The notes under the pieces: generated by a model
What the model saw: only the letters and a program-made list of their open reading frames with translations
Database searches by the model: none
What the model was told of the DNA's origin: nothing
In this document: one piece after another, positions 49,049-61,516 of the stretch
Numbering within the stretch: the stretch's first letter is position 1
Layout of the letters: each line of letters starts with the position of its first letter
Made by a program: the position numbers and the translations under genes
Source of the DNA: Pedobacter chinensis
Lineage (GTDB): Bacteria; Bacteroidota; Bacteroidia; Sphingobacteriales; Sphingobacteriaceae
Assembly: GCF_003339865.1 (NCBI RefSeq)
Contig: NZ_QPKV01000002.1
Location: 806,001 to 870,000 of the forward strand
Reading direction: 5' to 3'
DNA length: 64,000 nt

Positions 49049-50560
49049 TTATTTAAACTTCATTTTTCTGGTTTCGATCATTCCTTTAAATTCATGATCT
49101 AACTTTTCATTTGCATAATCAATTAATTCTCTTGACACTCCTGATGTGCTGCTTAACGCATTATCTTTCAGGTAAGATGTAAAGGAACCAGTGGCTGAAT
49201 AGTTTAAGGCCTGAGCCAATAATTTTTCTGAAGTATCGCCAAAATCTTTAGTCAAATCATCCACCACATCTTTATCAACTGGCATACCGTCAAAGTAATC
49301 TCCAAAATCTGCCTGGTTTTTGGTTTGGAATTGAGGGATATATAAATCGTTTTTATCAATACGAATAGAGAAGAAACCTACCGGTTTACCGTAAGTCCTT
49401 CTTCCAATTAATTTAACATCCATTACGGGTTTTAAGTTATTGATCAGCAATTCACTTGCCGATGCAGTTCCACCTGACACCAGGAAATAGACCCTTGTCA
49501 AACTATTTAAGCTTCCTCTCTTGGCAAAAACTTCCTGATTACCTGCTGCCGCCGTTGGCTTGTAAGAATAATCAAAAAACGAATATAACCTGGTTACACC
49601 ATCAGTACCTTTCGCATAGAACTTCTGGTTTTGCAATATTGTTGCCTGATTATCTTGCATGGTTTTAGTCCAGTACGTAGTATACATTATTTTACCATTT
49701 TGAGATGCTGGAGCAATCAGATTTGTAAAAGCTTCTGATGTGGCTACCGATCCTCCCCCATTATAACGTAAATCAACTACAAGTTCTGTAATTCCATCAG
49801 TATTGAATTTCTTAAAAGCAGCATCAAGCAGTGGAACAGAATTGGTGGTAAAGCTGTTAAAAACAATATAGCCCACTTTTTTAGCTCCAACTGTATAGGT
49901 ATTTGAATACAATATCGGATTGATGTTATAACTTCCTCTGGCAATAACCAAATCCTGAGTGGTATGATCCGGTTTTTCAATAGTTAAAGATATAGTTGGA
50001 TTGTTACCAAAAATACCGTCATTTAAATTATCAATATCTGCCTGACTTGTTCTTGAAGTACCTCTTCCATTAACCCGTATAATCTGATAGCCTCTTACCA
50101 AACCTGCCGCTGCAGCCGGAGAGGTAGCATACACATATTTCACACGTAGTAAATTCGAGGCATCATAATCTGCAGAAAAGCCGTAATTTCCGCTCACGCC
50201 ACCCAGCTGTTCTGCAACTGTTCCGTCATCAATAAATGAATATTTATCTTTTCCTCCTGTACTGGGCAATGCTTTTAACGCAGCTAACACCTGATTATTA
50301 TTGGCATACTTTCTTGGATTGAATGTATCATAAGATGGCATTCCGACATTCCAAAAATAAGTTTGTTTAGCATACAGAAAGATAGAATCTCTTGTTAAAT
50401 AATCACGGTTTGTGGTAGGGGTTTGCAGTGTATTTGATTCAACCACCGGCGAAGAATCGGCATCAGGTTCTACGTTGTTTTTTTTACAAGAAGCTAAAAA
50501 CCCGGCTACTCCAATCAAAAAGCACAAAAAGCTTTTTGGCACATTAACTTTTCTCAACAT
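49049..50560 (-). CDS. S41 family C-terminal processing protease, lipoprotein
   Basis: A 503-residue protein. Lipoprotein signal with lipobox FLASC (Cys25). PDZ region at about 118-200 (YGFSADYDASNLLRVKYV, GYQIIRVNG). The protease core at 225-440 has catalytic Ser367 in SGGTASASE and the general-base Lys392 in GRRTYGKPVG. Tail-specific proteases of this kind process or degrade proteins at the envelope. The N-terminal 25-115 region is not a known domain. It is transcribed before a strong terminator. The upstream HAD-like gene begins only 2 bases away and may be in the same operon. Confidence 0.9.
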   Translation of the reverse strand: MLRKVNVPKSFLCFLIGVAGFLASCKKNNVEPDADSSPVVESNTLQTPTTNRDYLTRDSIFLYAKQTYFWNVGMPSYDTFNPRKYANNNQVLAALKALPSTGGKDKYSFIDDGTVAEQLGGVSGNYGFSADYDASNLLRVKYVYATSPAAAAGLVRGYQIIRVNGRGTSRTSQADIDNLNDGIFGNNPTISLTIEKPDHTTQDLVIARGSYNINPILYSNTYTVGAKKVGYIVFNSFTTNSVPLLDAAFKKFNTDGITELVVDLRYNGGGSVATSEAFTNLIAPASQNGKIMYTTYWTKTMQDNQATILQNQKFYAKGTDGVTRLYSFFDYSYKPTAAAGNQEVFAKRGSLNSLTRVYFLVSGGTASASELLINNLKPVMDVKLIGRRTYGKPVGFFSIRIDKNDLYIPQFQTKNQADFGDYFDGMPVDKDVVDDLTKDFGDTSEKLLAQALNYSATGSFTSYLKDNALSSTSGVSRELIDYANEKLDHEFKGMIETRKMKFK

Positions 50561-50562
50561 AT

Positions 50563-51171
50563 TTATTTGTAAATTTCTAGTGACACAATATACGGCAAAT
50601 TAATTAATCTGGATTGTTGTTCATCAAAATTATTTGCACCAACAACTAACGCATCACTTGAAGATAAATTGTTGTCGTTTAATATGTTCTGAAAAATTTC
50701 TGACTTTTGCTGATTAAGTTCATCTGCAAAGTAAACAGTTAAGTATTGCTCCAGCCCATTCCATTCTGTTTGCTTAATCTTGTTCAGCTGTTGCTCCGGA
50801 TTTCCAGCTGTAACAATAAATATCTTTTTCCGGTCAACAACCAGCGTTTGCATAAATTCCAGCATGTTTTTGAACAATAAAAGCTTTAAAGGCAATCGGG
50901 CATTTTGATGCAAAAGCTCAAAGTTATATTTGTACTTATTATCAATTTCAAATGCTGTGGCCGTTTTCTCAAATAAATGATCTGTTCCATTATTTTTAAA
51001 CTCATTGCGCATAAACTCAAGAATAACCTGAGCATTTTTTTGCTCCGTATATTCTATAAATTGAGCAAACAGATAGTAAACCTGGAGCAGGTAATCTTTT
51101 TCCGGATAAAGTACATCATCCAGTTCAAAAATCACGATCTGTTTATCTTTGATTAATTGATGGGCATCCAT
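50563..51171 (-). CDS. HAD-superfamily protein with altered nucleophile
   Basis: A 202-residue protein of the HAD-IA fold (cap of helices between motif I and motif II). Motif I reads VIFELDDVLYPE. Family members have FDxDDTLY; here the first Asp, which is the phosphorylated nucleophile, is Glu16, and only Asp18 remains. Motif II FIVTAGNP is intact; the motif IV acidic pair is weak (VVGANNFDEQQ). It is probably not an active phosphatase and may bind a ligand. It lies 2 bases after the preceding gene (51174), so the two are co-transcribed, followed by the S41 protease gene. Confidence 0.78.
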   Translation of the reverse strand: MDAHQLIKDKQIVIFELDDVLYPEKDYLLQVYYLFAQFIEYTEQKNAQVILEFMRNEFKNNGTDHLFEKTATAFEIDNKYKYNFELLHQNARLPLKLLLFKNMLEFMQTLVVDRKKIFIVTAGNPEQQLNKIKQTEWNGLEQYLTVYFADELNQQKSEIFQNILNDNNLSSSDALVVGANNFDEQQSRLINLPYIVSLEIYK

Positions 51172-51173
51172 AT

Positions 51174-51653
51174 TTATATTGTGAATAATTTTAAATCATC
51201 GCTTGGAGAATTATAGCCAAATACACCGTTCAGCTCCTCTCCTTGTTTTACAAAAATCTCTGCTCCACTAGAAAAAACACATTCTCCGCGAACAAATACT
51301 GCAAAATTCTGAAAAGTATTTTTTTCTTCTAAAATGTATTCAGCAAGAGAATCTGCTGGTGGTGTTAAAACCTGAATACCATACTCATCAAACAAAACGG
51401 CTGATTTCGCCAATGGTTCTACCTCAAAAAAGTGTAAGGGTATAATGCAATCAATTGCTTCGGTAATGCAAAAGTTCAGCAAAATATGTGCAATGCTATC
51501 TTCGTTTAAAATTCCTAAAGAACTGAAAGCATAATTTTCGGCAACGATTCCGGGCACTTCGCCATAATCTGCCAACAAAACAAAATGAGAGGGAAACGCC
51601 TTCATTAATTTTAATGCTTTTGCATTATTCCCACCTGTAATTAATATTTTCAA
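51174..51653 (-). CDS. Pre-ATP-grasp-like protein without ATP-grasp domain
   Basis: A 159-residue protein. MKILITGGNNAKALKLMKAF at the start, LLADYGEVPGIVAENYAFSS, and IDCIIPLHFFEVEPLAKSAVLFDEYGIQVLTPP form the Rossmann-like N-terminal domain that usually precedes an ATP-grasp ligase in PylC or carbamoyl-phosphate synthase-like enzymes. The catalytic ATP-grasp domain is absent, as the gene ends after the linker. The start is a TTG at 51653; no better ATG is present. It is followed directly by the HAD-like gene, forming an unusual pair of a ligase-like and a phosphatase-like protein, both lacking key catalytic parts. Confidence 0.7.
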   Translation of the reverse strand: MKILITGGNNAKALKLMKAFPSHFVLLADYGEVPGIVAENYAFSSLGILNEDSIAHILLNFCITEAIDCIIPLHFFEVEPLAKSAVLFDEYGIQVLTPPADSLAEYILEEKNTFQNFAVFVRGECVFSSGAEIFVKQGEELNGVFGYNSPSDDLKLFTI

Positions 51654-51761
51654 GCTTTAAATTGTTGTATGGTGAAATTGTTATGTTGTTTAACAATGAA
51701 TTAAAAATACTCTGATCAAACACGACTATCTTAAAATCTATTAATCTTAAAAATCCTGATC

Positions 51762-52412
51762 TTATACGATTAATCCATCTTTCATGGTCACTATGCGATC
51801 ACTCGTTTTTGCTAAATGTTCATTATGTGTTACAATTATAAATGTTTGATGAAAATTATCACGCAGCGTCACAAAAAGTTGATGTAGCGCCGCAGCATTT
51901 TCTGAATCCAGATTTCCGGATGGTTCATCGGCCAGAATAATTGATGGACTATTAATTAAAGCCCTTGCAATTGCAACCCTTTGCTGTTCACCTCCTGATA
52001 ATTGATTTGGCTTATGATTTGCCCGATCTTTTAACCCAAATAAATCCAATAATTCCAAAGCCCTTGTTTCAGCCTGTTTTTTATTGGTTTTAGCGATGAA
52101 TGCCGGAATACAAATATTTTCCTGAGCACTAAACTCTGGCAATAAATGATGAAATTGAAAAACAAAGCCGATGTTTTGATTACGAAATGCGCTTAACAGT
52201 TCTCCACTCAGCTTGCTCACTACCGTTCCCTTCAATTCAACGGAGCCATCATCTGGTTTATCCAATGTACCAAGAATATGCAACAAGGTACTTTTCCCTG
52301 CTCCTGAAGGACCAATTATACTCACAATTTCTCCTTTTTGCACTTCAAAATTTACACCTTTTAATATTTGTAGATTTCCGTATGATTTTCTTATTCCAGT
52401 GGCTTTTAGCAT
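51762..52412 (-). CDS. lolD: ABC transporter ATPase, LolD-like
   Basis: A 216-residue ATPase of the MacB/LolD family. Walker [10 protein letters not shown] (residues 34-42), signature [15 protein letters not shown], Walker [14 protein letters not shown] and the H-loop VTHNEHL. The compact size fits LolD, which drives release of lipoproteins from the inner membrane to LolA (encoded at 23785). The transmembrane partner LolCE is not in this stretch. Family assignment is sure; the lipoprotein role is an inference from length and similarity. Confidence 0.85.
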
Positions 52413-52647
52413 GGTTCAAATTTAATAAAAAAGCTTAAAGACTAAAGGTAAAAGCCGAAAGGCTAAGAAACTGTTTTAAATTTTAATAAGTGAAATTATT
52501 GGTACGCGTTCTCAAGTGCCACTGAGTTGTAAAATCAAAAGTCATTTTTTAAACAGTTTCTAAAGCCAAATATCAGAGCAATCAACAAGCCCGTATAATA
52601 TTCTAGAGAAAAATTAAAAATAATCTTGGATATTTCATTTTCTTATT

Positions 52648-52675
52648 TAACTTTGAAAAACAAAGCACTTTTAAA
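52648..52675 (+). promoter_or_regulatory. Promoter and operator of the regulator/exosortase region, copy 1
   Basis: TAACTTTG at 52648-52655 fits the -7 box, with CTTG at 52625-52628 in the -33 position (spacing 19). The box overlaps the palindrome CTTTG-AAAAA-CAAAG (52651-52665), followed by CACTTTTAAAA directly before the ATG. A nearly identical stretch stands at 53631. Confidence 0.65.
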
Positions 52676-53311
52676 ATGAGCAATTCAGAAGAACAACTAA
52701 ATGCATTAAAAGATATCAGACAGATGATGGATCGTTCATCCAGATTTATATCATTAAGTGGTTTATCAGGCGTTTTTGCGGGTGTTATTGCGCTTATGGG
52801 TGCTTATATAGCAAATGATGAAATAGATAAATTCATTAATAAGAGGGGTTACAGTTATGGTGTTGAGGGCGAAATGGATTTAGAATTTAATTTGTTAAAG
52901 CTTGGTTTTTTTGTGTTAATCATTGCGTTGGCAGGAGGAATTTTATTTACTTATCGAAAAAGTCAGCGGAACAACCTCCCGATTTGGGATAAAACTTCAA
53001 AATCTTTGTTGCTTAATTTATTAATTCCATTGGCTGCAGGCGGTTTATTTATTATTGCTTTACTTTTCAACCATCCTCATACCTATGCTATTATAGCACC
53101 TTCCTGCTTAATTTTTTACGGCTTATCTCTAATCAACGCCAGTAAATATACTTATAGTGATATTCGCTATTTAGGCTATTGTGAGATTGTACTTGGGTTA
53201 ATTTGCATGTTTTATGTTGGATACGGATTAATATTTTGGGCTTTTGGTTTCGGTGTACTTCATATTATTTATGGATTGGTAATGTATTTTAAATACGAGA
53301 AAGGCCAGTAA
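52676..53311 (+). CDS. Conserved membrane protein linked to a winged-helix regulator
   Basis: A 211-residue protein. A polar N-terminus (about 1-22) with a helical DIRQMMDRSSRF is followed by about six membrane segments (GVFAGVIALMGAYIA, LGFFVLIIALAGGILF, and four in the C-terminal half). In Bacteroidetes this protein type is typically encoded just before a small winged-helix protein, as here (one base between the stop and the next ATG). It may sense something at the membrane and control that regulator. Function unknown. The leader carries the operator described for 52648-52675. Confidence 0.8.
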   Translation: MSNSEEQLNALKDIRQMMDRSSRFISLSGLSGVFAGVIALMGAYIANDEIDKFINKRGYSYGVEGEMDLEFNLLKLGFFVLIIALAGGILFTYRKSQRNNLPIWDKTSKSLLLNLLIPLAAGGLFIIALLFNHPHTYAIIAPSCLIFYGLSLINASKYTYSDIRYLGYCEIVLGLICMFYVGYGLIFWAFGFGVLHIIYGLVMYFKYEKGQ

Positions 53312-53312
53312 G

Positions 53313-53609
53313 ATGAAGAACCCAATAGCAGATCTGAACAAAATTTTCGACAGCCGTATCCGGCTCGGCGTGATGTCGATCCTCGTGGTTAACGATGAAA
53401 TCAGTTTCAATGATTTAAAACAGATGCTCGAGTTAACTGATGGTAATTTGGCATCACATTTAAACACGCTGGAGCAAGCCGAATTTATTAAGGTACATAA
53501 AGGCTTTATTGGCCGCAAAACCAGTACCACCTACTCGATCACCAATTTGGGCAAACAGGCTTTCAAAGCCCATTTAGATGCGCTCGAAAAAATGATTAAA
53601 AAGTTATAA
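53313..53609 (+). CDS. Winged-helix transcriptional regulator
   Basis: A 98-residue DNA-binding protein with the order helix, helix-turn-helix, wing: IFDSRIRLGVMSILVVNDEI, SFNDLKQMLELTDGNLASHL, NTLEQAEFIKVHKGFIGRKT then STTYSITNLGKQAF. This is the MarR/ArsR-like single-domain group often paired with the upstream membrane protein. It is expected to act as a dimer on a palindrome; the best candidate is the CTTTG...CAAAG element present before its own operon and before the exosortase unit. No ligand-binding domain is visible. Confidence 0.88.
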   Translation: MKNPIADLNKIFDSRIRLGVMSILVVNDEISFNDLKQMLELTDGNLASHLNTLEQAEFIKVHKGFIGRKTSTTYSITNLGKQAFKAHLDALEKMIKKL

Positions 53610-53630
53610 AATATTTTTTTTAACCACATA

Positions 53631-53660
53631 CTTTGAATTTCAAAGCACTTTTAAAAACAT
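53631..53660 (+). promoter_or_regulatory. Candidate operator of the exosortase unit, copy 2
   Basis: CTTTGAA-T-TTCAAAG (53631-53645) is a palindrome with 7-bp arms. It is followed by GCACTTTTAAAA, exactly as in the stretch before 52676. It lies between the regulator gene and the membrane protein gene at 53664, so a second transcription unit probably begins here and is controlled by the same regulator. A -7 box would be imperfect (ATACTTTG). Confidence 0.65.
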
Positions 53661-53663
53661 AAA

Positions 53664-53963
53664 ATGAACAATTCAACTGAACCACAAATTATCGATACCT
53701 GTAAGCGGCTAGCTTCGAGATCCGCTATTCTTGGAACACTCATTTTCGTTTGTTTCGCCATTATAAGGATACCAGAAATGATGTTTTTTGGTTTGATGTA
53801 CATTTTATTTGCCGGCTTGATTAATGGGATTTTTTTTATTGCGCTTGCAGTTTCATGTTTTACAAACAAGGCATATTGGCAAAAAATCGTTGCCACGATG
53901 ATTTTTATGCTCGCTAATATTCCACTCAGTATTTTCTATAGTTTCCTCGCATTTATGTTATAA
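53664..53963 (+). CDS. Small membrane protein of the exosortase K locus
   Basis: A 99-residue protein with three to four membrane segments (ILGTLIFVCFAI, MMFFGLMYILFAGLINGIFF, IVATMIFMLANIPLSIFYSF). No family recognised. It lies directly upstream of the DUF4173-like gene with a gap of ten bases and is the first gene of the second transcription unit of the locus. Its hydrophobicity and position suggest a role in assembly of the sorting complex (inference only). Confidence 0.75.
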   Translation: MNNSTEPQIIDTCKRLASRSAILGTLIFVCFAIIRIPEMMFFGLMYILFAGLINGIFFIALAVSCFTNKAYWQKIVATMIFMLANIPLSIFYSFLAFML

Positions 53964-53973
53964 AAATCAAAAA

Positions 53974-55548
53974 ATGAAAACAAAATCCAATTATCTCCTA
54001 CTCTCAACCTTAATTGGGGGTATTCTTTTTAACCTATTGTTTTGGTCTGAAAGGCTGGCACTTAACCTGTTAATTTATAGCTTATTTGTTGTGGCGGTTA
54101 CTTTCTTCAACAGTGAGGTTCTCAAAAGTAAAAAGTTCGGCATATATGCCTTTGCGCATCTATTCGCTGCTGTTCTTGCGGTTATCAATAACTCCGATTT
54201 ATCTCTAGCCACTTACTATATCAGTTTTATTTTGTTTGTTGGTTTTACGCACTATCAGCATATCAGAACAGTGTGGGTTGCTTTCCTTGCTACGGCATTG
54301 CAAATTGTGGCCATACCTGCAAGCTTAATAAAACGCATGTCTGAACTTCAAATTGGCAATTTTAATTTGAAACCCATATTCAGACCAATCAAGTACATCA
54401 TTTTCCCATTAATTATTGTTTTCATTTTCACTGGAATTTACAGCGGGGCGAATCAGATTTTTGGAAACTACCTGAGTTCAGCATTGGATAATATCCAGGC
54501 AACATTGACTAAGGTTTTCAGTTTTATCTTTCAGGATTTAAGTTTCGAACGTTTTGTTCATCTCTGCTTTGGCATCGCTTTAACCGGTGGCTTGATCATT
54601 ACTTTTTACAATCGCTTTTTCGAAAGAAATGAGGCAAAACTGGAGGAAGTGCTTGTGCGAAAAAGAAGTAATAACAAAATCAGAACGCTTTGGAATGAAA
54701 TCGCTCATATATTCATGGGACAAATCATTTCAAAGAAACTTGCCCTAAAAACAGAATATATCGTTGCTTTGATTTCTTTCGCTGCCTTGAACTTTCTACT
54801 ATTAATTTTAAATGGCATTGATATTTGGTGGTTATGGCTCGGAAAAGGAAAAGATCTGGCTGAAACCAATTATTCAGCAGAATTACATGATGGAACCAAT
54901 GCTCTCATATTCAGCATTGTTCTGGCGATGGTTGTGATTGTTTATTTTTTCAGAGGAAATCTTAACTTTTACACTAAAAGCAAAACACTTAAATCCCTGG
55001 CTTTTGCCTGGATGATACAAAATTTCATCTTGATTATTTCTGTTTTCATTCGTGATGGACACTACATTGAAGTTTATGGTTTAACTTATAAAAGAATTGG
55101 TGTTTTAGTGTTCGCAATACTTTGTATTATTGGCTTGATTACGGTTTACATAAAGGTGGCGCACCAGAAAACCTTGTTTTACCTGTTCAAGATAAATGGA
55201 AATATCTGGTATACCTTGCTATTGGTGTTTACCGTCATTAACTGGGATATGGTTATCGTGAAACACAATTTAGCGCACTCAAATACCATCGCTTTAGATG
55301 TTGATTATATTCTTTCATTATCGGATAAAACATTGCCGATTCTCGATCAAAACAGAGTTAAACTAAACTATGCTCCAAATAAAAATTTATATGGTTCGGA
55401 GATCGCTAAACCAGAAAACCCAGAATATTACAAAAGACAACTGGATGAGCGCATTGGCCATTTTAAAGAACGATATGAAAAAGTAAGCTGGCTCTCATGG
55501 AATTTGCCGGATTGGAATACGTCCGAATATTTCAGAATAGAAAAATAG
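53974..55548 (+). CDS. DUF4173/DUF4153-type membrane protein
   Basis: A 524-residue polytopic membrane protein with about eleven hydrophobic segments and a soluble C-terminal tail of about 80 residues (LDQNRVKLNYAPNKNLYG onwards). ELHDGTNALIFSIVLAMVVI and YGLTYKRIGVLVFAILC are family landmarks of DUF4173/DUF4153. It is not known to have catalytic residues. The exosortase gene follows after three bases and probably belongs to the same transcript. It may form part of the export or processing apparatus for the MSEP-CTERM protein. Confidence 0.8.
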   Translation: MKTKSNYLLLSTLIGGILFNLLFWSERLALNLLIYSLFVVAVTFFNSEVLKSKKFGIYAFAHLFAAVLAVINNSDLSLATYYISFILFVGFTHYQHIRTVWVAFLATALQIVAIPASLIKRMSELQIGNFNLKPIFRPIKYIIFPLIIVFIFTGIYSGANQIFGNYLSSALDNIQATLTKVFSFIFQDLSFERFVHLCFGIALTGGLIITFYNRFFERNEAKLEEVLVRKRSNNKIRTLWNEIAHIFMGQIISKKLALKTEYIVALISFAALNFLLLILNGIDIWWLWLGKGKDLAETNYSAELHDGTNALIFSIVLAMVVIVYFFRGNLNFYTKSKTLKSLAFAWMIQNFILIISVFIRDGHYIEVYGLTYKRIGVLVFAILCIIGLITVYIKVAHQKTLFYLFKINGNIWYTLLLVFTVINWDMVIVKHNLAHSNTIALDVDYILSLSDKTLPILDQNRVKLNYAPNKNLYGSEIAKPENPEYYKRQLDERIGHFKERYEKVSWLSWNLPDWNTSEYFRIEK

Positions 55549-55551
55549 AAT

Positions 55552-56082
55552 ATGAAAATCACCAACAATATTATCCTTTTAGGAATTGGAATTCTAATAT
55601 TCATGATGCTGAAAATGGCTTATACTTTTTTAAGCACAGAACAACTTCTGTTTGTACTTGCGCCTACTAATTTCTTGGTTTCCTTAATGCTTGGAACTAA
55701 AAGCGCTTATGTTCATGGATATGGTTACTTCTACCATGATTTAAATATCACGATCGAAAAGGCTTGCTCAGGATACAATTTCATGCTTTTAAGTTTTACG
55801 ATGATGTATTACCTAGGCGCTAAATATTTCAAAAACAGGTGGTCAATCTGGTTTATATTGTCCGTTTCAACAATCTTTAGTTGGGCACTAACTCTATTTG
55901 TAAATACCTCCAGAATAGTTTCATCTGTAATCATTAATAAATCGCTCTTCTCTGCAAAATCTTACAATTCTGTATTTCATCAAGTTGAGGGCACATTTAT
56001 TTATTTATTTTTTCTGGTTCTGATGTACAAAATCCTCGATCAATTACTAAAAAAACACGCAAAAAATGAAAAATTTGCTTAA
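55552..56082 (+). CDS. xrtK: Exosortase K
   Basis: A 176-residue membrane transpeptidase. The catalytic triad expected for exosortases is present: Cys72 in EKACSGYNFM, Arg121 in NTSRIVSSV and His143 in FHQVEGTFIY. The short length and Bacteroidetes context fit the XrtK type rather than XrtA, which is more than 250 residues. Exosortases cleave a short C-terminal signal of the form motif-TM-basic tail and may attach the substrate elsewhere. The start of the next gene overlaps this one by 17 bases, and that gene encodes the presumed dedicated substrate. Confidence 0.88.
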   Translation: MKITNNIILLGIGILIFMMLKMAYTFLSTEQLLFVLAPTNFLVSLMLGTKSAYVHGYGYFYHDLNITIEKACSGYNFMLLSFTMMYYLGAKYFKNRWSIWFILSVSTIFSWALTLFVNTSRIVSSVIINKSLFSAKSYNSVFHQVEGTFIYLFFLVLMYKILDQLLKKHAKNEKFA

Positions 56083-58879
56083 CCCTAAATGGATTATAGC
56101 TATTAATATTATTCCCTCAATCATATTAATTGCATTGCTCTACGGCCAATTGAACGTCATTGAAAGTTTATTGGACAAAAATGCTTTAACGATGTGGAAG
56201 GATTTTTCCATTTGTTTAATTGTGGCAACTATTCTACAAATTATTTATACCGTATTTTGTATTATAAAAGACCTAAATATTTCTGGCTATTACGCTGTAT
56301 TTACATTAATTATTTACAGCGTAATAATTTATTTTTTTGGGCAGAACAGTGAATATTTAATTCCATTTTCTGTTCCACGCTGGATGATTAACATTGATCC
56401 TTTTTATTATTCAGGAACATTTTTAATGTCTTCCCTAATCCATTCACTATTTATTTTAGTTGTTTTATCTAGCAGAAAAAGTAATACTACATCGGCAGGA
56501 CTTAGTTTTTTATATGGCATTTGCATTCCATTACTAGGATATATATTTATTCAAGTCGTTTTACCACTTTGGCAAAACACAGAAAGCAATTTTAGCACAC
56601 ATGTTTTAATCGTTTTATTTCTATCGGCATCAATACTTTTTCTATTCTTTATTTGCCGTGGGTTTTATATTTTAACAACTAAAACTTCTTCAACACTTTT
56701 AAAGTTCAAAATTTACCTCAAAATAGTGATCTGTATTGTGTTTCCGATTTTAGGTTTACTAATTAACAATAGCGTTTTTAAAATAAAATACGGAGTTGGA
56801 AACGAACCTTTTGGGAATTTCAGCAATGCGTGGTTTTACATTGTTACTGTTTTTAATGGCATTCTGATCTGTTTATATAAAATCAAAAATGAAAATTTTC
56901 GTCTTTTCAGGTTTTATGCCCTCCTTGCCTGTTATCCTAATACGTTATACTTTTTCTTTGTATTTGCACCATTTTTACCACTGGCCATAGTTGCTGTAAT
57001 TGCCATGGGAATTGGTTTTTTAATGCTTACACCATTGGCATTATTTACGCTCCAAACCAATGATTTGCATAAAGAGTATCATAATTTAAAGCAAAGCAAT
57101 TCGGCATTTAAGCTTAAAACGATCGGAACCGTTGCGTTTTTAGTTTTACCAATATTTATAACCGTTTCCTACTGGAAGGATAAGCTTGTTCTTAACAATG
57201 CGTTAGAATATATTTACAGTCCGGATTACTCAAAAGATTACAGAATTGATGTTAAATCGTTATTTAAAACGCTTGAGGTCATTAAACAAAACAAGACTAA
57301 AAGACGCATTTCTGACAATCAAAATACGCCCTTTTTAACACCATACTATAATTGGTTAGTTTTAGATAACATGGTTTTATCTGACCAAAAGATAACCAAA
57401 CTAGAAGAAGTTTTTGGAGGCTATAAAAATGAGCTCGAACCGCAATCCCGCTCTTTTTCAAATCGTGCTAAAATTTCAAAAATAAAGGCGACAAGTAAAT
57501 TTGATTCCCATGAAAAAGTGTGGAGAAGTATAATCGATTTAGAACTTACAAACCCTAGTGATGAAGATCTGGATAGTTACGAAACCGTTTTTAATTTGCC
57601 CAATGGATGTTGGGTTAGCAATTATTATTTAAACATTGGCAATAGAAAAGAATACGGAATTCTGGCAGAAAAAAAATCGGCACTTTGGGTGTTCTCTCAA
57701 ATTAGAAATGAAAATCGCGATCCGGGTATTTTATATTATTTAAGTGGAAATGATGTCGCTTTTAAAATATTTCCATTTGGCTCAAAAGAAATCAGAAAAA
57801 GTGGAATAGAGCTGATCCATAAAGAGCCAATTACCTTCAAAATTGATGATAAATCAATTGATCTTGGTAACAAGCTTCAAATTGCGGCTGGTAAAATCGA
57901 ATCGATAAATGGCACCACTTATATTCCTGCTCGTGAAAAAGCCAAATTAAAACTTGTTAAAAGAATTCCTCAATACCATTTTTTAATAGATGTATCGCAA
58001 GGGCAAGAGCGTCATAAAGAAAATTATTACAATCGGATAACGCAGTTTATTAAAACAAAGGGAATAAAATCTGATCAAATTAAAATAGATTTTGTCAATG
58101 CCTTGTTAAATGAAATACCATACCATTCGAAATGGAAAAATGAACTGGTTGAACAAGATTTCAATGGAGGTTTTTATGTAGAAGGTGCTATAAAAAAGAT
58201 TTTAGCGCAGCATTATAATACTAATAATAATACTTTTCCGGTAATGATCATTGTTTCTGATGATTCAAAAATTGGAATTTTAACACAAAACTTTGCTGAT
58301 TTTAAATTGGCTTTTCCTGAATCGAACTTCTTTTATGAACTTGACAGAGAAAATAATTTGTGGAGTCATTCTTTAGAAAACAATCCAAAAAATCGGATTG
58401 AAAAAGTATCTAAAATTACCAATCATGGTACCAGGGTATGGAAAAATAAAACAAATTATCATTGCTATCTCTCTAATGATGATCAGGCATCAATTGCAAT
58501 TAATTCGAAATTAATTGAAAATGATTTTGCAGTAGAAAAGCAAAAAACATGGGCTGCCGGACTTAATTTACAAGGCATGTGGTTTAATGGTTTTATAAAT
58601 AAGTCTTTTTCTAATGAAAATCATTTAAATATGATTAAGCAAAGTATAATAAGTGGCATTCTATCTCCAACAACATCTTATTTAGTTGTTGAAAATGAGG
58701 CACAAAAAATGGCCTTAAAACAAAAACAAGCCCAAATTTTATCGGGGAACAAAAATCTCGACCCTGATGAAGAAACGCAAAGAATGGATGAGCCAAATCT
58801 TTATCTACTGCTTTTATTGATATTACTCGTTTTTAAATTTAAAAAGAACCTAACATTTCTATCCCTTGCAACAAAATAA
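56066..58879 (+). CDS. MSEP-CTERM-like sorting substrate, membrane protein with VIT-like domain
   Basis: A 937-residue protein. Residues 1-370 hold about ten membrane segments. A VIT-like domain (about 470-590) follows, with ETVFNLPNGCWVSNYYLNIG and NENRDPGILYYLSGNDVAFKIFPF. A vWA-like region starts near YHFLIDVSQGQERHKENYYN, but the MIDAS motif is degenerate (D-V-S-Q-G). The C-terminal tail is RMDEPN (residues 906-911), then a leucine-rich membrane helix (LYLLLLLILLVF) and a basic KFKKN end. This is the tripartite MSEP-CTERM-type signal, with D in place of the usual S. It should be sorted by the exosortase encoded just upstream. The gene overlaps xrtK by 17 bases. Confidence 0.85.
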   Translation: MKNLLNPKWIIAINIIPSIILIALLYGQLNVIESLLDKNALTMWKDFSICLIVATILQIIYTVFCIIKDLNISGYYAVFTLIIYSVIIYFFGQNSEYLIPFSVPRWMINIDPFYYSGTFLMSSLIHSLFILVVLSSRKSNTTSAGLSFLYGICIPLLGYIFIQVVLPLWQNTESNFSTHVLIVLFLSASILFLFFICRGFYILTTKTSSTLLKFKIYLKIVICIVFPILGLLINNSVFKIKYGVGNEPFGNFSNAWFYIVTVFNGILICLYKIKNENFRLFRFYALLACYPNTLYFFFVFAPFLPLAIVAVIAMGIGFLMLTPLALFTLQTNDLHKEYHNLKQSNSAFKLKTIGTVAFLVLPIFITVSYWKDKLVLNNALEYIYSPDYSKDYRIDVKSLFKTLEVIKQNKTKRRISDNQNTPFLTPYYNWLVLDNMVLSDQKITKLEEVFGGYKNELEPQSRSFSNRAKISKIKATSKFDSHEKVWRSIIDLELTNPSDEDLDSYETVFNLPNGCWVSNYYLNIGNRKEYGILAEKKSALWVFSQIRNENRDPGILYYLSGNDVAFKIFPFGSKEIRKSGIELIHKEPITFKIDDKSIDLGNKLQIAAGKIESINGTTYIPAREKAKLKLVKRIPQYHFLIDVSQGQERHKENYYNRITQFIKTKGIKSDQIKIDFVNALLNEIPYHSKWKNELVEQDFNGGFYVEGAIKKILAQHYNTNNNTFPVMIIVSDDSKIGILTQNFADFKLAFPESNFFYELDRENNLWSHSLENNPKNRIEKVSKITNHGTRVWKNKTNYHCYLSNDDQASIAINSKLIENDFAVEKQKTWAAGLNLQGMWFNGFINKSFSNENHLNMIKQSIISGILSPTTSYLVVENEAQKMALKQKQAQILSGNKNLDPDEETQRMDEPNLYLLLLLILLVFKFKKNLTFLSLATK

Positions 58880-58899
58880 AACAACAATAAATAAAATAA

Positions 58900-59211
58900 A
58901 TGATGAAAAATAAAGAAACAAATAACCATGCTAAATTAAGAATTAGCATAATTTTAGTTACCATCGCTGTTATTTTAAGCATTCCACTAATTGCCATGCA
59001 GTTTATAAATCAAGTAAAATGGACACTGATCGATTTTGTAGCTGCAGGAATTTTATTGTTAACAACAGGTTTAGCAATAGAACTTGTAATTAGAAATGTA
59101 AAAACGAACATTTCAAGAACTGTTTTACTTGTGATCATCTTAATTGTAACTTTTCTGGTCTGGGCAGAATTGGCTGTAGGTATTTTTGGAACCCCGTTTG
59201 CTGGAAGCTAG
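58900..59211 (+). CDS. Small membrane protein at the end of the exosortase locus
   Basis: A 103-residue protein with three membrane segments (ISIILVTIAVILSIPLIAMQ, LIDFVAAGILLLTTGLAIEL, RTVLLVIILIVTFLVWAELA). No family recalled. It begins 20 bases after the MSEP-CTERM gene, so it is likely co-transcribed and may be an accessory part of the sorting system. An alternative start codon is one position downstream (ATG at 58903). Confidence 0.75.
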   Translation: MMKNKETNNHAKLRISIILVTIAVILSIPLIAMQFINQVKWTLIDFVAAGILLLTTGLAIELVIRNVKTNISRTVLLVIILIVTFLVWAELAVGIFGTPFAGS

Positions 59212-59323
59212 TTATTATTTAAGGTTAAAATTTGCCGGGGACCAATTTGCCAAGAACAATAGGCTTTGTTAATTAAACCCGATTGAACGGAAATACTTTT
59301 TTAAATTACTACCGCTAATTTTC

Positions 59324-59386
59324 TGCAATCCTGAGGCACGAAGGATCTGAAACCGATGAAACAGAAGCTTCGTACCTCAGCATTAC
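59324..59386. repeat. Palindromic dispersed element
   Basis: TGCAATCCTGAGGCACGAAG on the left and CTTCGTACCTCAGCATTACA on the right form an imperfect palindrome. It is a relative of the elements at 45645 and 61451, which share AGGTACGAAG/CTTCGTACCT. Otherwise the 315 bases before sucC hold only its promoter. Confidence 0.75.
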
Positions 59387-59478
59387 AGAGCCTGTTTAAA
59401 AAAGATTGCAGTGAAAGCGGGGCTGCTTTTCCCGATTAACATAAAACGTTCATTTTCTGAAAAAATCGGCAATTACTA

Positions 59479-59509
59479 TTTGTTTAAAGGCTTTAGAATT
59501 GTAGCTTTG
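59479..59509 (+). promoter_or_regulatory. Promoter of sucC
   Basis: TTTG at 59479-59482 and TAGCTTTG at 59502-59509 with 19 bases between them match the Bacteroidetes primary sigma consensus exactly. The expected start point is about 8 bases after the -7 box, giving a leader of about 10 bases. Confidence 0.8.
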
Positions 59510-59526
59510 GGCAAATTTTGTAGCAA

Positions 59527-60720
59527 ATGAATATTCACGAATACCAGGGTAAACAAATATTAAAAAGTTTCGGTGTTAACGTTCAAGAAGGAATTGTTGC
59601 CGATACGCCAGAGCAAGCTGTTGAGGCTGCAAAGCAATTGAAAACTGATTATAATTCTGATTGGGTTGTAATTAAAGCGCAAATCCACGCTGGTGGTCGC
59701 GGTAAAGGCGGTGGCGTTAAATTAGCCAAAAACCTTGATGAAGTTAAACAACGTGCAACCGATATTATTGGAATGCAATTGGTTACTCCTCAAACCGGAC
59801 CAGAAGGTAAATTGGTGAACAAGGTTTTAGTTGCGCAGGATGTTTACTATCCGGGTGCCTCTGAAACTAAAGAATTCTACATTTCTGTATTGTTAGATCG
59901 TGCAAAAGGTCGCAACATTATTATGTACAGTACTGAAGGCGGTATGGACATTGAAGAAGTTGCTGAACATACTCCACACTTAATTTTTAAAGAAGAAATC
60001 GATCCTAAAGTTGGTTTGCAAGGTTTCCAGGCTCGTAAAATTGCTTTTAACTTAGGTGTTAGCGGCAATGCTTTTAAAGAGATGGTTAAATTTGTAACGG
60101 CTTTATACAAAGCTTATGAAGCTACCGACTCTTCTATGTTCGAAATCAATCCGGTGTTAAAAACATCTGACGATAAAGTGATCGCTGTTGATGCTAAAGT
60201 TAATTTAGATGAAAATGGCTTATTCCGCCACCCGGATTATGCAGCAATGCGTGATGTTACGGAGGAAGATCCAATGGAAGTTGAGGCAAGTGCGAGTAAC
60301 TTAAACTTCGTTAACCTTGATGGTAATGTAGGTTGTATGGTTAACGGTGCTGGTTTAGCGATGGCTACCATGGATATCATTAAATTAGCTGGTGGTGAGC
60401 CTGCTAACTTCTTAGATGTTGGTGGAACTGCAAATGCTCAAACGGTTAAGGCTGCTTTCAACATCATTTTGAAAGACCCTAATGTTAAAGCGATCTTAAT
60501 CAATATTTTCGGTGGGATTGTTCGTTGTGATCGTGTGGCTCAAGGAGTTATCGATGCTTACAAAGAAATTGGAAACATCCCTGTACCAATTATCTGCCGC
60601 TTACAAGGTACAAACGCTGAAGAAGCTAAGAAATTAATTGATGAATCGGGACTTAAAGTTTACTCTGCGATTGCCTTAAAAGAAGCTGCTGATTTAGTGA
60701 CTAAGGTTTTGGCTAACTAA
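59527..60720 (+). CDS. sucC: Succinyl-CoA ligase, beta subunit
   Basis: A 397-residue TCA-cycle enzyme subunit that couples succinyl-CoA cleavage to nucleoside triphosphate formation. The N-terminal MNIHEYQGKQILKSFGV and the ATP-grasp domain VVIKAQIHAGGRGKGGGVKL are diagnostic; the CoA-ligase domain contains FEINPVLKT, GCMVNGAGLAMATMDI and LINIFGGIVRCDRVA. The alpha subunit gene (sucD) is not adjacent: downstream is a repeat region and then the sigma factor. So sucC and sucD are separated in this organism. A strong promoter and terminator flank the gene. Confidence 0.97.
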   Translation: MNIHEYQGKQILKSFGVNVQEGIVADTPEQAVEAAKQLKTDYNSDWVVIKAQIHAGGRGKGGGVKLAKNLDEVKQRATDIIGMQLVTPQTGPEGKLVNKVLVAQDVYYPGASETKEFYISVLLDRAKGRNIIMYSTEGGMDIEEVAEHTPHLIFKEEIDPKVGLQGFQARKIAFNLGVSGNAFKEMVKFVTALYKAYEATDSSMFEINPVLKTSDDKVIAVDAKVNLDENGLFRHPDYAAMRDVTEEDPMEVEASASNLNFVNLDGNVGCMVNGAGLAMATMDIIKLAGGEPANFLDVGGTANAQTVKAAFNIILKDPNVKAILINIFGGIVRCDRVAQGVIDAYKEIGNIPVPIICRLQGTNAEEAKKLIDESGLKVYSAIALKEAADLVTKVLAN

Positions 60721-60777
60721 AAAAAGGTAGAAGGCGGAAGGTTTAAGGTTAAAAACCCAACGTATTATACAATATAT

Positions 60778-60811
60778 AAAACCTTTCGGTGCAAGCTGAA
60801 AGGTTTTTTTC
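60778..60811 (+). terminator. Terminator of sucC
   Basis: Perfect arms AAAACCTTTC / GAAAGGTTTT with a 10-base loop (GGTGCAAGCT) and a T-run. The terminator is also the left end of repeat block A, whose other copy is near 61290. Confidence 0.88.
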
Positions 60812-61460
60812 TTTTAGCCTCTCCCTATCAATGGCAGTAGTGAAACTCGTTGTAGTACTGTCCCTCTCCTTGAAGAGAGGGAATTATCCGGTTGTGGTTT
60901 TAACCTTAGGGGAAAATGCAGGAGGTTTTGAAACCTGCTGTCATACTGTTAAACCACCAGGATAAAACGTTTATTGGTTAAAAACTTTATTTAGCATAAA
61001 TCGTTTTTTTTTATTTTTTACCACCTAAGATACCCGAGATAATGTTGTAAAAAACTTAGGTGTTCTCAGGTGTCTTAGGTGGTAAATATTTAAATTTATA
61101 TCAGGTTTAGATTACCAGGGTAAAATGTTTATTGGTTAAAAACTTTATTTAGTAATAAATCTTTTTTTGTTTTTTACCACCTAAGACATCTTAGAAAACT
61201 TCAGCCAAATATGGCAAGACTTAGGTGCTTTTCAGATGTCTTAGGTGGTAAATCTTTAATTTGAAAAGCGACTTAGGGTTAAAATACAGTATTAAACCTT
61301 TCGGTGCAAGCTGAAGTTTTTTTGTTTTAGCCTCTCCCTATCAATGGCAGTAGTGAAACTCGTTTTAGTACTGTCCCTCTCCTTGAAGAGAGGGAGTTAT
61401 TCGGTTGTGGTTTTAACCTTAGGGTAAAATGCGGGAGGTTTTGAAACTTGCTGTCATGCT
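60778..61460. repeat. Mosaic repeat region A-B-B'-A'
   Basis: Block A (about 60783-60945) contains CCTCTCCCTATCAATGGCAG, GTCCCTCTCCTTGAAGAGAG and TTTTGAAACCTGCTGTCAT. It recurs as A' (about 61290-61456) with a few changes. Block B (about 60955-61090) contains GTTTATTGGTTAAAAACTTT and TTACCACCTAAGA...TCTTAGGTGGTAA (an inverted repeat). It recurs as B' (about 61110-61250). The order is A, B, B', A'. No open frame of interest. It reflects an ancestral duplication within an intergenic stretch. Confidence 0.85.
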
Positions 61461-61516
61461 GAGGTACGAAGCATCTGTTTCATAGGTACTGAATACTTCG
61501 TGCCTTAGCATGACAG
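61451..61516. repeat. Palindromic dispersed element
   Basis: CTGTCATGCTGAGGTACGAA on the left and TTCGTGCCTTAGCATGACAG on the right, an almost perfect palindrome. Same family as 59324 and 45645. Confidence 0.8.

Follow-up and report, generated by a model that had tools for sequence, protein, structure and literature searches.

To our knowledge, the pairings of exosortases with their substrates rest mainly on co-occurrence. The system closest to the locus studied here is exosortase K (XrtK) with its MSEP-CTERM protein (NCBIfam families TIGR04287 and TIGR04286). Two other systems are related. XrtN, an exosortase of ~440 aa, adjoins a polytopic VIT-domain protein of ~840 aa whose sorting-type tail has A/V-PEP before the helix (TIGR04476 and TIGR04477). 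XrtX is linked to PID-CTERM proteins (NF046081 and NF046080), with several clients per genome that mostly lie away from XrtX or are short open reading frames (ORFs) adjoining it. Flavobacterium johnsoniae has another Bacteroidota exosortase, XrtF, of a separate family (TIGR04128); the available text of one study describes xrtF mutants with reduced sand colonisation, strongly reduced biofilm and zero zorbs (PMC10936215). For the wider exosortase group, transpeptidation to an acceptor is proposed in the accessible part of PMC11980579, and archaeosortase A is described in the portion available of PMC7157517 as coupling cleavage to lipid attachment. In the open-licence literature, of which coverage was partial, we found no study of exosortase K, of MSEP-CTERM or of PID-CTERM, and none on an exosortase with a VIT domain or on a swap of exosortase sorting signals.

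Here we analyze an XrtK locus within a 64,000-nucleotide stretch of the Pedobacter chinensis genome (contig NZ_QPKV01000002.1; hereafter the window). By family assignment, the locus is a further example of the existing NCBIfam families, with MDEP replacing MSEP. Comparison with relatives indicates that, where XrtK was lost, the sorting signal of its partner did not decay but gave way to that of another exosortase.

xrtK overlaps the gene for a full-length MSEP-CTERM client

Seven same-strand genes occupy positions 52676–59211 of the window, between a divergent ABC-transporter gene, which we take to be LolD-like, and sucC (Table 1). XrtK scored 132.7 bits against TIGR04287 (cut-off 55), and the triad Cys72, Arg121 and His143 was unchanged in 73/73 aligned proteins, comprising the window's XrtK and 72 of the 73 listed XrtK proteins after a length filter (L045, a copy of L080, was excluded). 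The exosortase with a complete catalytic triad that had been read from the window is thereby confirmed. When XrtK was compared by sequence with solved structures, the top match was ferritin at E 0.091, which is not credible. A pattern search of viral contigs gave three matches, with no relative of XrtK among them.

Table 1 Features of the XrtK locus (positions in the window).
Feature	Position	Strand	Basis
Gene A (TM211), 211-aa membrane protein, no family over cut-off	52676..53311	+	Pfam/NCBIfam
Gene B, winged-helix regulator HTH_34 (PF13601, 99.4 bits)	53313..53609	+	Pfam
Gene C, 99-aa membrane protein, no family match	53664..53963	+	Pfam/NCBIfam
Gene D, DUF4153 membrane protein (PF13687, 152.6 bits)	53974..55548	+	Pfam
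Exosortase K (XrtK), 176 aa	55552..56082	+	TIGR04287 match; Cys72, Arg121, His143
MSEP-CTERM family client, 937 aa, overlapping xrtK	56066..58879	+	TIGR04286
Client VIT region, ~residues 469–631	57470..57958	+	Pfam sub-threshold match, AlphaFold, Foldseek
Client degenerate vWA-like region, ~residues 630–798	57953..58459	+	fold match, alignment
M907-D-E-P910, predicted recognition motif (MSEP in most relatives)	58784..58795	+	tail alignments
C-terminal hydrophobic helix, ~residues 912–932 (model 912–936)	58799..58861	+	model, hydropathy
Gene G, 103-aa membrane protein, no family over cut-off	58900..59211	+	Pfam/NCBIfam

The client gene shares 17 bases with xrtK (56066–56082). Its product scored 811.4 bits against TIGR04286 (cut-off 150) across model positions 1–916 of 920, indicating full-length membership, and the tail has the expected build: TQRMDEPN, a hydrophobic helix, and lysines both inside and behind this helix. 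The client thus agrees with the MSEP-CTERM type assigned to it from sequence. It reads M-D-E-P in place of the literal M-S-E-P, and stays a member by virtue of its family score, since M, E and P are retained and the second residue is variable in the family. Across 30 aligned tails, M, E and P were constant and the helix was variable.

An AlphaFold model of the client (62-row alignment; pLDDT 86, pTM 0.84) shows helices up to residue 384, followed by a VIT region rich in beta strands, a part with a vWA fold, a linker and the C-terminal helix. The N-terminal half is polytopic, as had been proposed, with 10 helices predicted by hydropathy and 11 in the model; 11 helices would place the VIT–vWA part outside, as exosortase action requires. 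The VIT-like domain is upheld in part: the model contains the beta-rich region and resembles the VIT fold in a Foldseek search, but the Pfam score of 22.8 bits (PF08487) lies below the gathering cut-off of 26.5. The vWA part superimposes on the vWA domain of ANTXR2 (PDB 1sht; Z 10.2, rmsd 3.4, 139 residues). As the sequence-only reading had suggested, this region is degenerate: in 62 aligned rows the metal site keeps Asp 642 in 61 and Ser 644 in 57, and Ser 646 in 6, and the window's client has Gly at this third DxSxS position, leaving the site incomplete. The fold-search list consisted mostly of vWA-domain matches, so that the remaining parts of the client were barely probed by it. A VIT–vWA cargo is less unusual for a sorting system than had been claimed, as XrtN also has a VIT client (TIGR04477).

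XrtK and its client form a one-to-one pair

Of 395 genomes of the class, 9 encode an XrtK over cut-off and 10 a client. The client gene was adjacent to XrtK in 9/9 XrtK genomes, and the tenth client genome (G188) was without an XrtK match. A scan of named genomes used patterns lying mid-protein, so that tails were not selected for; the best 80 of its 156 loci were kept and joined by eight class loci to give 88 after exclusion of the copy L045. XrtK lies next to the client in 82 of these 88 (best 80 of 156 plus eight class loci). It is absent beside the client in four (L129, L133, L136 and L053), and in two (L076 and L082) the contig starts ~90 bases upstream of the client, so that adjacency is not judgeable there. 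All 80 readable tails beside XrtK, that is, those of the 82 linked loci minus the incomplete tails of L101 and L126, read M-x-E-P (again from the best 80 of 156 plus eight class loci), the second residue being S in 69, T in 5, D in 4, A in 1 and P in 1. The four other loci that share MDEP with the window are all Pedobacter records (L061, L068, L124 and L128), and a further genome of the window's genus (G406) has a MAEP tail. In the P. chinensis genome, a tail-profile search picked out the client at E 1e-15 and had no second match below E 0.4. XrtK therefore has a single adjacent MSEP-CTERM client, and both the one-to-one pairing and the reading of the tail as an XrtK target with an MDEP variant hold. 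The pair matches described XrtK/MSEP-CTERM systems in scores far over both cut-offs, adjacency and gene order.

Two observations concern individual pairs. In G173, the client gene is divided between overlapping ORFs of 628 and 370 aa (L047:6994-9749, minus strand) beside an intact-looking XrtK; either the gene is split or the assembly is in error. XrtK–client pairs are also present in assemblies labelled Elusimicrobia (L069), Spirochaetia (L098), Leptospiraceae (L108), Fibrimonadaceae (L111) and Treponema (L135); if the labels of these MAGs are correct, the pair extends past Bacteroidota.

The upstream block is a favoured neighbour of the pair

The flanking genes include three unrecognised membrane proteins (A, C and G) and a winged-helix regulator, as read from sequence. 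Gene D, previously called DUF4173-like, matched only DUF4153 in a listing to E 0.1. An initial comparison with the eight other class loci found conservation limited to the XrtK–client pair. The larger locus set revised this picture: in 22/69 loci, gene A and HTH_34 recur as same-strand neighbours at most ~7 kb from the client gene, the 69 being the loci with at least 4 kb upstream among the 88 (best 80 of 156 plus eight class loci). By a rough estimate for a 20-kb stretch in a 4–5 Mb genome, chance would account for well under one locus. The HTH_34 and DUF4153 genes upstream of xrtK set the window apart as one of a minority of loci.

Such recurrence raises the alternative that the entire block from 52676 to 59211 works as a single XrtK machine under a regulator of its own. 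In its favour, besides the 22 loci, one arrangement (L104, L117 and L132) even places gene A and HTH_34 on either side of the XrtK pair, and XrtN pairs also adjoin the block. Against it, 47 of the 69 loci (best 80 of 156 plus eight class loci) lack same-strand A and HTH_34, the eight other class loci conserve the pair alone, and, among 99 genomes of the window's genus, gene A is present in 93 and XrtK over cut-off in 6. The mapping of loci with gene A covered 81 of these 93 (80 relatives and the window). HTH_34 comes after A with or without XrtK, and DUF4153 is found farther along in 57 and CreD in 19. In 50/81, the block with DUF4153 precedes sucC, and the ten genes that follow include neither XrtK nor XrtN. 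These genus counts led us to reject a single whole-block machine, which we consider unlikely. The pair has the TM211–HTH_34 block as a favoured neighbour rather than as a dedicated component. What remains of the earlier interpretation is an XrtK with its own client, paired one to one and with an MDEP tail; the dedicated regulator is not sustained.

The XrtK pair occurs in 6/81 mapped A loci, 6/6 with DUF4153. An XrtN-type pair occurs in 9/81, with CreD or with neither gene and never with DUF4153 (0/9), and no locus has both pairs; the names CreD, XrtN and VIT client come from one representative per cluster. XrtN is thus similar to XrtK in adjoining a polytopic VIT protein and in its placement beside the TM211–HTH_34 block, and differs in its companion gene. 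Outside the genus this split is looser, with XrtK beside CreD in, for example, L067, L071 and L100. Gene G also adjoins sucC in relatives without XrtK. An Rfam scan of 50000–61500 gave no match at the gathering score; promoter-like sites (31 versus 32.4 expected) and terminator-like sites (7 versus 4.2 expected, sd 2.2) support no claim.

In genus members without XrtK (L164–L222), the site between DUF4153 and sucC is empty or carries a small protein cluster (c15, c53, c62, c63, c76 or c25); representatives of these six clusters gave no match over Pfam or NCBIfam cut-offs. In G432, one of the six mapped loci with the XrtK pair, both XrtK (146 aa) and a client piece with an MDEP tail (313 aa) are shortened (L222:4242-5571, plus strand), which looks like joint decay.

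The sorting signal is exchanged where XrtK is missing

Of the four loci without XrtK, three belong to named Hymenobacter records, and the fourth, G188, is probably of Hymenobacter type. Among 101 genomes of the Hymenobacter-type genus, the client was over cut-off in 38 and XrtK in 14, all 14 within the 38. The tail was M[ST]EP in 14/14 genomes with XrtK and in 0/24 without it; the latter had a PID-CTERM-like tail in 24/24, in which a V/T/I-P-[ILV]-[DN] motif precedes a helix whose end is rich in arginine. Eighteen of these 24 scored over the PID-CTERM cut-off, two below it (G497 and G584) and four were unlisted. In these four (G502, G531, G539 and G543) the motif was judged by eye only, and G502 is a broken gene with a shortened tail. 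The linker that precedes the motif is conserved, reading LDAGEDTQRMSEP in rows with XrtK versus LDAGEDTPPTAVPLD in another genus.

The exosortases of two Hymenobacter-type genomes belong to XrtX (NF046081), one of them beside the associated membrane protein NF046082. XrtX was over cut-off in 23/24 XrtK-less genomes versus 4/14 with XrtK; the sole XrtK-less genome in which it was not detected (G571) is an assembly of ~600 contigs with 6% contamination. Consistently, at least one further PID-CTERM gene was present in 24/24 XrtK-less genomes and in 4/14 with XrtK (G491, G513, G538 and G555). These four are the ones with XrtX, and their client tails stay M[ST]EP. A PID gene lies within ~1 kb of XrtX in 14/27 XrtX genomes. 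XrtX thus appears to process the same client family in XrtK-less Hymenobacter-type bacteria, differing from XrtK in enzyme family, motif and number of clients. Six further loci from a family search agree with the swap: one with XrtK has an MSEP tail, and five without it (G609, G617, G621, G650 and G688; ~6 kb examined in each, three from another genus) have PID-type tails, the client gene of G688 being spread over two frames.

In a tree built with the tail columns removed (G502 excluded, outgroups XrtK-linked), 23 PID-type clients formed one clade (100/100) and the 14 XrtK-linked clients lay on the other side. Since the outgroups are XrtK-linked, the direction of the swap is MSEP to PID, and one event is enough; a single ancestral swap explains the exchange. 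The 24 XrtK-less genomes are for this reason not independent tests. On this careful tree no independent loss of XrtK was found, and a quick tree without bootstrap placed the later XrtK-less rows in the same PID-type group. Neighbours compared across six Hymenobacter-type loci (L122, L125 and L127 with XrtK; L129, L133 and L053 without) share cluster c12 in 6/6 and c16, c23 and c13 in 5/6 each, and, as these clusters are common to loci with and without XrtK, XrtK was probably lost in place.

As an evolutionary test, the swap indicates that the tail is a genuine signal, that M-x-E-P belongs with XrtK and that processing is required for the client. A helix with a basic end could by itself anchor the client, and M-x-E-P or MDEP would then have no enzyme-related role. 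The constancy of M, E and P beside a variable helix argues against a plain anchor, as does the presence of another exosortase's motif where XrtK and its own motif are gone; we regard this reading as highly improbable.

A proposed mechanism for XrtK

Family membership, a constant triad, strict pairing, a single tail in the P. chinensis genome and tail exchange without XrtK together point to XrtK as a one-client enzyme of C-terminal processing, which would cut at M-x-E-P and probably ligate; we assign this reading a probability of roughly 0.72. Counting against it, the swap is a single event, and anchoring alone does not account for the system, because the N-terminal helices already hold the client. 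The client would be held in the inner membrane by ~11 N-terminal helices, with its VIT and degenerate vWA module exposed outside the cytoplasm and its C-terminal helix re-entering the membrane. XrtK would recognise M-x-E-P just outside this helix, and the best reading is that Cys72 cuts the client there, at MDEP in the window. The new C-terminus would then most likely be transferred to a small acceptor in the manner of a sortase-like transpeptidase, as proposed for exosortases and archaeosortases. We infer the cut, the ligation, the acceptor and the client topology from these comparisons. As XrtK apparently has exactly one client, the action of an exosortase on a C-terminus becomes traceable on a single protein. 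XrtK and XrtN pairs recur beside TM211–HTH_34 with either CreD or DUF4153, which points to a role in the envelope; we infer that this role is linked to this type of gene block.

Alternatively, XrtK might remove the C-terminal helix as an activation step or conformational switch, without ligation, the N-terminal helices holding the protein. The client does have ~11 other membrane helices, and its tolerance of XrtK or XrtX is most simply explained if the cut itself counts. Cleavage joined to lipid attachment in archaeosortase A (available portion of PMC7157517) and the transpeptidation proposed for the wider group (accessible part of PMC11980579) weigh against cleavage alone, which is possible but in our view doubtful. 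The tolerance of either enzyme suggests that the cut alone matters or that both enzymes leave a similar product. Processing with ligation remains our preferred reading.

The top Foldseek match of the client model was inter-alpha-inhibitor heavy chain 1 (PDB 6fpy, E 1.4e-9), at a low whole-chain TM-score of 0.30 on the target. The available text of PMC7170535 describes inter-alpha-inhibitor heavy chains with C-termini ester-bound to a glycosaminoglycan, chondroitin sulfate. Heavy chain 1 differs from the client: it is a secreted human protein that has a functional metal site, lacks a membrane half and is served by unrelated enzymes. We treat the parallel as a lead, not a result. By extension of this analogy, polytopic VIT–vWA proteins might form a general client class, whose C-termini would be ligated by exchangeable XrtK, XrtN or XrtX to an envelope glycan or lipid, fixing both ends of the protein; this is speculative, and we would not expect it to hold.

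Elsewhere in the P. chinensis genome, contig C15 encodes a further VIT-domain protein of 1037 aa (L059:7173-10286, minus strand), with stretches like SusC-type plug and repeat proteins and weak scores, all below cut-off, on TIGR03788, TIGR04477 and TIGR04286. Additionally, contig C16 encodes a second exosortase, XrtY (L323:5341-5922, minus strand; NF046083, 246 bits, cut-off 160), adjacent to an acyltransferase-like ORF and a glycosyltransferase-like gene, the 5' part of which is duplicated alongside.
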